Source: Verrucomicrobiota bacterium
GTDB lineage: Bacteria; Verrucomicrobiota; Verrucomicrobiia; Limisphaerales; JACDHS01
NCBI GenBank assembly: GCA_013820875.1
Contig: JACDHS010000012.1
Span: 1-59,239, forward strand
Direction of reading: 5' to 3'
DNA: 59,239 nt
Shown here: in pieces, positions 42,455 to 45,320 of the stretch
Layout of the letters: the number at the start of each line of letters is the position of its first letter
How positions within the stretch are numbered: the stretch's first letter is position 1
Notes under the pieces: generated by a model
Databases searched by the model: none
What the model saw: the letters and a program-made list of their open reading frames with translations, nothing else
What the model was told of the DNA's origin: nothing
Made by a program: the position numbers and the translations under genes

Positions 42455-42480
42455 GGCAGGGATACTTTTAGAATCTCACA

Positions 42481-42513
42481 AAGGCGAACGGATTTTTCCG
42501 TTCGCCTTTTTTT
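42481..42513 (+). terminator. Strong intrinsic terminator after ahcY
   Basis: AAGGCGAACGGA pairs perfectly with TCCGTTCGCCTT over a TTTT loop, with seven T from 42507. It isolates the metK-ahcY operon from the sigma factor gene. Confidence 0.93.
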
Positions 42514-42572
42514 ATTCGGTCGGTGAATCGAAGGTCTGTAACGTTTCTCGACCGCTGTTGTCTTCCGGTTAA

Positions 42573-45320
42573 ATGAACGAGACCAATCCAATTGATGCTG
42601 TCCAACAGGATGCCGAAGCGGTTACCGCGATTCGGAGTGGTGACGCGGAACGGTATCGCGAACTCGTGGAACGCTATGAACGGCGTGTTTTTGCGATCGC
42701 GTGGAGTCGGTTGGGGGATGCGGCCCTTGCGGAGGAAGCAGCCCAGGATGCGTTTGTTCGTGGTTATCAGCAGCTGCGTTTGCTGAGCGACGGCGCAAAG
42801 TTCGCGGGTTGGATCAGTTCAATCACTCGCAATATCGCCATCAACCTCGGGCTGCGCCATCGCCGTGAACTGAAGAAGCGCGAACGCTGGGCGCTGGAAC
42901 AGGTGACGTCGGAGAGTGGCGAGTCCGAAGATGAAAATTTCACGCCAGAAACGTTGCGCCGGACTTTGGAAGATATTTCCGCCGCACATCGCGAATGCCT
43001 CGTCCTGTTTTATCTCGAAGGCAAAAGCGGGAGTGAAGCTGCCACTGCACTGGGGGTATCGGAAGCAGCCTTTCGAGTGCGGTTGCATCGGGCGCGAGTA
43101 GCGATTCGCGAACAGTTGGATAAGAAGTTGGAAAACTCTCTGCAGAATCTGCGTCCGACCAAGCCAATCGTGCCTGCGGTGATGGCGGCGATCTTTCTCA
43201 CCTCATCCGCGAAAGCTGCGACTGGAGGTGCTTTAGCAGGCGGCGCAGGAGCTTTAGGCGGCGGTAAAGGTTTTTTGTTTTCCTGGTTTTCTTTGGTGCC
43301 CCTGATCGGCGCGTTGCCCGGTGTTTTGTTTGCCTGGTTTGTGGGAGGAATGGAACGGCGGAACTTCCGCGATCAAGAAGGTTTTCGTCCGGCATTTCAG
43401 CGGCGCTACCTGCGAAGTTTTATGTGGGGCTTTCCGCTCGCGATGGTGGTTGGTATCTTTGCTTATTCTTTGGTTAGCTCCACAGACTTGGGTTTTTCCA
43501 ACAAGATAGGAAAAACAGTGGTGGCCGTATTTCTCCTGTATCTCACCTTGTTTGCAGCACGGTCGCTCTACATTGCGAGGAATGCGTTCCAGGTGGGCAT
43601 GGTTGTCTATACTGTCATTCTAGTGGTCGGCAATACTGCGGTCATAGTCGGTTGGCTTCCCAAACAGTTTTTTGCGCTCCCGATCATTCTTGGCAGCATT
43701 CTTTTGATACTTCTACTCAAGAAGCGGCCACTGCGAATGGATTACAATCTCTTCCTCCGCGCTGCCCAGGGTTTGCTTGATTCGCCGTCGCCGGTTTCGC
43801 CGATTAAAGGTGATGTGTTAAGCCGTGGTGAGATCCTGATGTTCGCTCGTTTCCTTGGGGCTCGCTGGCTCGTATCCAATTTCCGATGGGAGAATAATGG
43901 GTTGGCGCTTCAGTTGCCGTCGGTGGAGACTCATTTTGTCAAAAACCTCTCCATGCTTTTTATGCCGTTGTTTCGAAAGAATGGCTCATGGGTTCTACTT
44001 GCAGCGGATGGCACGGTTCGGGCGAATGCCGGTTCAAATGATTTCAAACGCTTGGAAATGTTAACCGGTAGATCGTTGTTTGAACTGGATAGCTTTGTGG
44101 CGAACTCCGTAGAGCATGCCTGGCGGGAATTTCGTCTTGGAAACATTGAAGCAGCCGAGAAGGCGATTGGCCAATTGCCTGACTCGGAGGTGTTCGTGGT
44201 CGCGCCAGAGCGCGCGAAATCCACTCTCTGGTGGCGAATGCTGCTCGGTACGTCAGTGGCTCTGATGCTGTTTTCCTCGTTCGGCCCATATTTGTTTCCT
44301 GCATGGTTTTCGAAACAAAAGCCGGTTTCGATTTCAGAAACAGAGGTGCGCCGGTTCCTCGGGGAAATTCAAGCTGATACGAACCGGAATGTAAGGGTAA
44401 AAAATGACATTCTGACTGCACTCACCTTTTGTCGCGTTCTTCCACCAACCAATCTTTTTGCTCCAAACGCTTTACAGACGATGCAGAAGGAGGTTTTTCG
44501 GGTGTCTGGTGTCGAGAGCCAGGAAGAAGTGAAACCTTCCAATCTATTTGAAAGTTTTCTTCTTACCGAAGCTTTGATGGGCGATTGGCTGGATTGGAAT
44601 GCGATTGAGCTGCAACCCGCCGACTTTAGAAATTATTTTCAAACTGATCGGGGCAGGAAAGGTGAGGATAATTGGCAGTTTTTACTCACTCGTTGCAAAT
44701 CCTGGTCTTGGGTGATTGAAGGGGAAGGCGACGTAAGGCGGATAAGAGGCTCCGGTCTGGCGCAATTGCAACTTCTACAAGAGGTGGACTGCCTCGATCT
44801 CATAGACCGAGACAAACTCATCCAACAGATCGCTTCTGTGCAGATCCTGTCCGGCGAGGTTCCAGTTGGACAGCCCTCGATTCATTATTGGAAGAATGTC
44901 CGAGGGCTTTTTCACACACCCAGTTGGCCGACATTGGAAGAGACTTACTTTTCAATCGCCGCTTTGGAAATTCTTGGTGGGCTCGATAAGATCGATCGCG
45001 AAGCCTGCGTCAAAGGCATTTTGCGTCTGCATCGCAGGAAAGGCTTCTTCATCTCTCCGCAGCCGGGTGGCTACAACGAATACAAGATCGACGGAAGCGC
45101 GCGTGATTCATTCTGTGCGTTCGAGTCACTCCGGATTCTCGGTGCGTTGAACCGCGTGAAGGACTTGGATCAATGGCAATTCCGATCCAGACGACAGAAA
45201 GACGGGTCTTTAACCTGGAACAACATCGAAGCCTGGGTGTTGCAGCAGCGCTTGAACAAAACATTGCGCGAAATGCAAAATAACCCGCAATCGCCCGTCC
45301 AGTCCCTCTCACGGGAATGA
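42573..45320 (+). CDS. ECF sigma factor fused to a membrane domain and a toroid-like C-terminus
   Basis: 915 residues. Residues 1-190 are a full ECF sigma factor: sigma-2 near FAIAWSRLGDAALAEEAAQD and sigma-4 at YLEGKSGSEAATALGVSEAAF with a recognition helix (VRLHRARVAIREQL). From about 236 to 382 there are five hydrophobic helices, and another at 551-570. A weaker one at about 199-216 would decide on which side the C-terminus lies. Residues 383-550 have no recognised fold. Residues 580-915 show alpha-alpha repeats like prenyltransferase/terpene-cyclase toroids (TLEETYFSIAALEILGGL; DSFCAFESLRILGAL). No anti-sigma gene lies beside it, so sensing and transcription may be linked in cis. Confidence 0.85.
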   Translation: MNETNPIDAVQQDAEAVTAIRSGDAERYRELVERYERRVFAIAWSRLGDAALAEEAAQDAFVRGYQQLRLLSDGAKFAGWISSITRNIAINLGLRHRRELKKRERWALEQVTSESGESEDENFTPETLRRTLEDISAAHRECLVLFYLEGKSGSEAATALGVSEAAFRVRLHRARVAIREQLDKKLENSLQNLRPTKPIVPAVMAAIFLTSSAKAATGGALAGGAGALGGGKGFLFSWFSLVPLIGALPGVLFAWFVGGMERRNFRDQEGFRPAFQRRYLRSFMWGFPLAMVVGIFAYSLVSSTDLGFSNKIGKTVVAVFLLYLTLFAARSLYIARNAFQVGMVVYTVILVVGNTAVIVGWLPKQFFALPIILGSILLILLLKKRPLRMDYNLFLRAAQGLLDSPSPVSPIKGDVLSRGEILMFARFLGARWLVSNFRWENNGLALQLPSVETHFVKNLSMLFMPLFRKNGSWVLLAADGTVRANAGSNDFKRLEMLTGRSLFELDSFVANSVEHAWREFRLGNIEAAEKAIGQLPDSEVFVVAPERAKSTLWWRMLLGTSVALMLFSSFGPYLFPAWFSKQKPVSISETEVRRFLGEIQADTNRNVRVKNDILTALTFCRVLPPTNLFAPNALQTMQKEVFRVSGVESQEEVKPSNLFESFLLTEALMGDWLDWNAIELQPADFRNYFQTDRGRKGEDNWQFLLTRCKSWSWVIEGEGDVRRIRGSGLAQLQLLQEVDCLDLIDRDKLIQQIASVQILSGEVPVGQPSIHYWKNVRGLFHTPSWPTLEETYFSIAALEILGGLDKIDREACVKGILRLHRRKGFFISPQPGGYNEYKIDGSARDSFCAFESLRILGALNRVKDLDQWQFRSRRQKDGSLTWNNIEAWVLQQRLNKTLREMQNNPQSPVQSLSRE

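Follow-up and report, generated by a model that had tools for sequence, protein, structure and literature searches.

The window analyzed here is the whole 59,239-nucleotide stretch of DNA from a Verrucomicrobiota bacterium. On its forward strand, an open reading frame of 915 amino acids (positions 42573–45320, with ATG at 42573 and the stop codon at 45318–45320) encodes a protein composed of sigma, membrane, middle, transmembrane (TM) and toroid parts. The frame is uninterrupted and has been kept in divergent homologs, and dN/dS values of 0.06–0.38 across three pairs of homologs indicated purifying selection on every domain of the fusion; an artefact of the frame or of the start codon was therefore ruled out. 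Upstream lie genes that we take, from their sequences, to be metK and ahcY. They end in an intrinsic terminator (positions 42480–42509, forward strand, a 13-bp stem followed by a T-run) whose predicted fold is very strong (-23.6 kcal/mol, z -6.85) and which divides them from the ECF gene. Given this terminator and the metabolic appearance of the genes downstream of the frame, the ECF gene stands alone. An earlier note on this DNA, made from the sequence only, had stated that no anti-sigma gene is adjacent, which was borne out by comparison of gene neighborhoods: neither an anti-sigma gene beside the frame nor any neighbor conserved across homologs was found, and the gene neighborhood pointed to no partner protein.

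The full-length protein was modeled with AlphaFold2 from 31 homologs (mean pLDDT 83), and its layout comprises an ECF sigma domain (residues ~10–190), a membrane domain (~198–384), an alpha/beta domain (385–548), a TM helix (549–574) and a toroid (575–915), all encoded on the forward strand. Sigma70 region 2 (residues 31–98, positions 42663–42866; PF04542, E = 1e-11) and Sigma70 region 4 (Sigma70_r4_2, residues 128–177, positions 42954–43103; PF08281, E = 9.6e-10) are present without region 3, the arrangement by which ECF sigma factors are recognized, and PF04542, PF08281 and TIGR02937 all exceeded their cut-offs. The N-terminal residues 1–190, which the earlier note had described as an ECF sigma factor, are therefore one by the Pfam curated thresholds for both Sigma70_r2 and Sigma70_r4_2. 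The six or seven hydrophobic helices noticed at that time are also present. Five confident ones form the membrane domain at residues 234–384 (positions 43272–43724; helices 234–263, 271–303, 308–332, 338–359 and 364–384 by AlphaFold2 secondary structure and hydropathy), a weaker segment is found at residues 198–216 (positions 43164–43220), and the last TM helix occupies residues 549–574 (positions 44217–44294; hydropathy, charges and the AlphaFold2 model). The weaker segment, which was delimited by hydropathy and charges in 30 homologs and has A-x-A at its end, lies in a linker after the sigma domain (residues 193–236) that is of low confidence in the model.

The middle region (residues 385–548, positions 43725–44216) had been left unassigned in the earlier note. 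It still has no known family, and it can now be described from the homolog alignment as a conserved domain in its own right (model pLDDT 88) and as part of the family core. It begins with R-P-x-R-M-D-Y-N-L-F-L-R immediately after the membrane domain, and R-x-D-Y-N-L-F-L-R is conserved in the alignment. No Pfam family matched this domain, and the best hits among solved structures were weak (Foldseek E 0.55; VIA-align Z 4.9). Judged by the model, the domain appears to be without a known family or fold, by which a new fold is not implied.

Residues 575–915 (positions 44295–45317) form an alpha-alpha toroid similar to prenyltransferase beta subunits. Such a fold had been guessed from alpha-alpha repeats, and structure prediction had been proposed as the test; the AlphaFold2 model indeed contains the toroid. 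It aligned best with 6j74_B, the beta subunit of GGTaseIII (VIA-align Z 13.8, rmsd 4.2, 269 residues, 12% identity), and the best 41 rows of the VIA-align search were all protein prenyltransferase beta subunits. In addition, PF00432 (Prenyltrans) matched residues 730–866 above its cut-off (E = 2.8e-7, 30.7 bits compared with 26.5) and was found in 18 of 22 homologous tails (E of 0.1 or better), and the sequence profile of the C-terminal tail matched GGTase-I beta (E = 1.5e-7). Since VIA-align and the tail profile both pointed to prenyltransferase beta subunits, the guess was right. The toroid shares its fold with the geranylgeranyl- and farnesyltransferase beta subunits but differs from them in the lack of an alpha subunit nearby and in the low identity of 12%; the zinc-ligand repeats fall outside its sequence alignment to GGTase-I beta.

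The same fusion, for which a genome survey had been suggested, was identified in about 20 distinct full-length homologs from Verrucomicrobiota and one planctomycete. Searching contigs with the alignment succeeded, and the single-protein query gave no matches. Using the middle-to-toroid part as a query, we detected the family in 31 of the 320 genomes examined from the order to which the window belongs, as well as in other Verrucomicrobiota records. In a phylum-wide draw only 3 of 388 genomes (that of the window and two more) were positive, and the distribution is therefore patchy. The commonest form is sigma-membrane-middle-TM-toroid. One clade (support 98/96) has the same core with a different tail, TPR-like by eye, and the members from Sumerlaeota and Omnitrophota, which have the core without a toroid, stop after the last helix. 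Thus, the conserved core is sigma-membrane-middle-TM, a chassis that carries a toroid, another tail or none. As judged from the sequences, the toroid is the commonest C-terminal module of the family and is replaceable. The earlier note had named a two-gene arrangement separated by a frameshift as evidence against a single fused protein, and no split version was found among the homologs. A two-gene ancestor of this kind was rejected, the incomplete homologs being contig ends, fragments or deletion remnants.

Of the protein, one such remnant (L137, L006:339-1061, G015:C104) retains the first ~16 residues and the middle domain together with the helix on either side of it, and the family promoter is still present. 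An in-frame gap, which may reflect a deletion or an assembly artefact, has taken out the sigma domain and the greater part of the membrane domain. Another extended ECF of a different clade (472 amino acids; L065:7703-9121, Sedimentisphaerales) adjoins the planctomycete member on the opposite strand.

Three members of the family (L031, L053 and L068) bear the sigma domain of another ECF clade. In the sigma tree, the other 27 members formed one group (support 100/98.9) and these three were placed in a different set (100/100); constraining all family sigmas to one clade was rejected (AU p = 8e-5). In the tree built from the membrane and middle domains, L031, L053 and L068 were apart from each other, corresponding to three changes of sigma type, and placing them in a single clade was rejected as well (AU p = 1e-82). 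On these trees, the sigma module has been exchanged about three times on the same chassis. With three independent changes, the sigma part is replaceable as well.

The acquired sigma domains came from the type-B verrucomicrobial extended ECFs. These resemble the present family in that the ECF domain is followed by a hydrophobic segment and then by a C-terminal region that varies, but they belong to another sigma clade, have another promoter and, in those sampled, carry other tails. The type-B clade is greatly expanded in the order, with 30 copies in one genome (G001, loci L107–L136) and 7 in the genome of the window. In G001 and other genomes, most type-B ECFs have long C-terminal extensions, with frames of 400–1150 amino acids. 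The sequence TGTY-N3-TTT-N8-GCG was observed beside the start codon upstream of most sampled type-B genes.

Upstream of the 915-residue frame, we identified conserved motifs on the forward strand that constitute an ECF-type promoter of the gene, TGTAAC-N17-GTCTT, with the -35 element TGTAAC at positions 42537–42542 and the -10 element GTCTT at positions 42560–42564. This promoter is conserved across homologs: GTAAC-N17-GTCT was present within the 250 upstream bases of 17 of 21 genes, compared with at most 3 in shuffled sequences. The -10 element and the start codon are 8 nt apart, a distance at which the mRNA is probably leaderless or nearly so.

The promoter follows the type of the sigma domain. 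Motif A (GTAAC-N17-GTC, no more than 100 bases from the start) was found in 23 of the 27 genes with the usual (type-A) sigma, including members from Planctomycetota, Sumerlaeota and Omnitrophota, and in 0 of 12 type-B genes, whereas motif B (TGTY-N3-TTT-N7..9-GCG) was found in 11 of the 12 type-B and 0 of the 27 type-A genes (shuffled rates in this comparison, 0.0013 and 0.0004). One of the four exceptions to motif A, L035, is explained by a wrong start codon, the promoter being present. Fisher tests of promoter against sigma type gave p values of 5e-7 and 7e-9, which are optimistic because the motif definitions came partly from the same sequences; the rows are also related. A stronger argument for the match of promoter and sigma domain is the natural swap, in which all three swapped members (L031, L053 and L068) have motif B and none has motif A. 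That these members carry the promoter of the acquired sigma type is strong evidence for a functional sigma domain that transcribes the gene encoding it. ECF sigma factors often read the ECF-type promoter of the gene that encodes them, and positive autoregulation by the sigma domain would be very likely on these comparative sequence grounds.

With regard to membrane topology, the net charges of the loops after confident helices 1, 3 and 5 and of the stretch before the last helix were +3.1, +1.7, +1.8 and +3.1, respectively, in 30 homologs, and the alternate loops were near neutral (+0.3, 0.0 and +0.1). According to the positive-inside rule, positively charged loops lie on the cytoplasmic side, and this charge bias would therefore place the middle domain in the cytoplasm and the toroid outside it. 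An extra crossing between the sigma domain and the first confident helix is then needed because the sigma domain must be cytoplasmic. The sole candidate is the stretch 198–237, which is weakly hydrophobic and almost uncharged. However, residues 198–216 form no clear helix in the AlphaFold2 model (short and of low confidence), which counts against the proposed topology. On balance, we consider it likely, with some reservation, that the toroid is extracytoplasmic and acts as a sensor. The hydrophobic segment after the sigma domain ends in A-x-A in most members (SSAKAA, or NSVQAA in the other sigma type). In the window (43164–43220) and in the homologs, this alanine-rich region may resemble an internal signal-peptidase site.

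Extended ECFs are an established kind of regulator, and at least 26 groups with N- or C-terminal extensions have been described (PMC8999054). IutY of Pseudomonas putida (ECF243), in which the sigma and anti-sigma factors are fused, is cut by Prc and RseP and responds to aerobactin via cell-surface signaling, and in ECF52 (SCO4117), ECF48 and ECF53 of Actinobacteria, the extension is at most 400 residues long and contains a zinc-finger anti-sigma domain and one to two helices (PMC8999054). The 915-residue protein is similar to IutY in that an N-terminal ECF domain and a membrane-anchored C-terminal regulatory extension are in one chain with no separate anti-sigma gene, and to the actinobacterial groups in that an ECF domain is joined to membrane segments, with an extracytoplasmic binding domain in the case of ECF52. 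It differs from IutY by its multi-helix membrane domain, alpha/beta domain and toroid and by the lack of a conserved receptor gene nearby, and from the actinobacterial groups by an extension of ~725 residues that lacks a zinc finger and has a toroid at its end. Pfam revealed no recognizable anti-sigma domain, either zinc-finger or class I, in the whole protein or in the middle domain, and for this reason we keep it apart from the IutY/ECF52 kind, although it may still work like them. ECF42 (TPR tail), ECF41 (SnoaL tail) and ECF238/CorE also have a C-terminal sensor or control domain on the sigma factor, but no membrane domain is described for them (PMC8999054).

Building on the anatomy and toroid fold, the exchangeable sigma and tail modules and the joint switching of promoter and sigma domain, as seen in the sequences and the model, we favor with moderate confidence a one-protein transmembrane signal transducer with a self-transcribing sigma domain. 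A cytoplasmic ECF sigma domain would be tethered by the multi-helix membrane domain and the cytoplasmic middle domain, and the last helix would carry the toroid outside the cytoplasm, where a ligand or partner would probably be sensed. Triggering of the sensor would make the sigma domain accessible to RNA polymerase, via cleavage or conformational change, and the freed sigma would transcribe its own gene from TGTAAC-N17-GTCTT in a positive feedback loop. We also infer, at about the same moderate level, that inhibition would occur in cis, as the earlier note had suggested, which is consistent with the absent anti-sigma gene and the autoregulatory promoter. As for the release step, proteolysis may be proposed tentatively, and a conformational change is possible if somewhat doubtful. 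A site-2 protease gene is present in the genome of the window, but because all 14 of the control genomes have one too, its presence is no specific support for proteolytic release.

One form of this release step, compatible with the signal transducer, would be a fused sigma/anti-sigma factor subject to regulated intramembrane proteolysis as in IutY, with the middle domain or residues 190–236 as the anti-sigma part. The resemblance of the architecture to IutY and ECF52 (PMC8999054), the presence of site-2 protease genes and the frequent A-x-A-like ends of the segment after the sigma domain speak for it, but the middle domain has no recognized anti-sigma family and its model has no close counterpart among solved domains, six to seven helices are present rather than one or two, and the protease genes are universal in the control genomes. 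We regard it as a tentative suggestion only.

In the search for a wider regulon, a strict pattern, GTAAC-VWTT-N13-GTCTT, matched 24 places in 20 genomes compared with 4 for a reversed control; 18 of these were at the family's own genes or a remnant, and the other 6 were about as many as expected by chance (control 4). A one-mismatch search in the genome of the window showed no excess (67 versus 143 for the control). Thus, in neither the own genome nor the 20 genomes could targets beyond the own gene be distinguished from chance. This would mean a very small regulon, or else further targets with weaker sites. Two sites, L142 (one of the 6 non-family sites) and L099 of the own genome, lie inside coding sequence. 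Two others of the 6 are L145 and L139. At L145 (G128:C7:8159-8185), the family promoter of that genome is repeated along with the bases that follow it, and the gene after it is a candidate regulon member; the encoded protein has a single hydrophobic segment at its N terminus, a coiled coil and a NPDMKELIRSQQK motif. An exact match in the genome of the window, L139 (G000:C154:1669-1695), immediately precedes a type IV pilin-like gene and may be due to chance.

It is conceivable, if rather unlikely, that the family represents a membrane protein with a dedicated sigma whose regulon is about its own gene, with sigma, promoter and sensor tail as interchangeable cassettes and sigma and promoter swapped together about three times. 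A self-governing protein, in which the membrane domain and toroid do the work and the sigma domain serves only to set how strongly its own gene, the whole regulon, is expressed, would agree with the preponderance of family genes among the strict matches and with the lack of excess in the one-mismatch search. Yet the strict pattern would miss weaker target promoters, the extra sites L145 and L139 sit at gene starts, and the non-sigma part has no known role as an enzyme or transporter, and we think it unlikely. The opposite topology, with five helices followed by a middle domain outside and a cytoplasmic toroid, has in its favor the five confident AlphaFold2 helices before the middle domain and the short, low-confidence 198–216; it would, however, put every positive loop outside throughout the 30 homologs, contrary to the positive-inside rule, and seems improbable. 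That the toroid is an active prenyltransferase modifying a partner is very improbable in spite of its best fold matches being protein prenyltransferase beta subunits, as the sequence match spans two or three repeats only, an alpha subunit is absent nearby and some relatives have no toroid at all.

No toroid-bearing sigma factor was found in the literature searched, whose coverage was partial, and we found no description of an ECF that combines a multi-helix membrane domain with a prenyltransferase-like toroid, although fused regulators per se are already known. What is new here is the conserved own promoter, which changes together with the type of sigma domain. The three swaps of sigma domain and promoter indicate, without any experiment, how sigma domains and the promoters they read are paired, and the signal transducer that we favor is therefore directly testable in a heterologous host. 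It offers a ready-made modular design, in which a single chain combines sigma domain, tether and sensor, and it draws attention to the numerous extended ECFs of the same order, about which little has been described.
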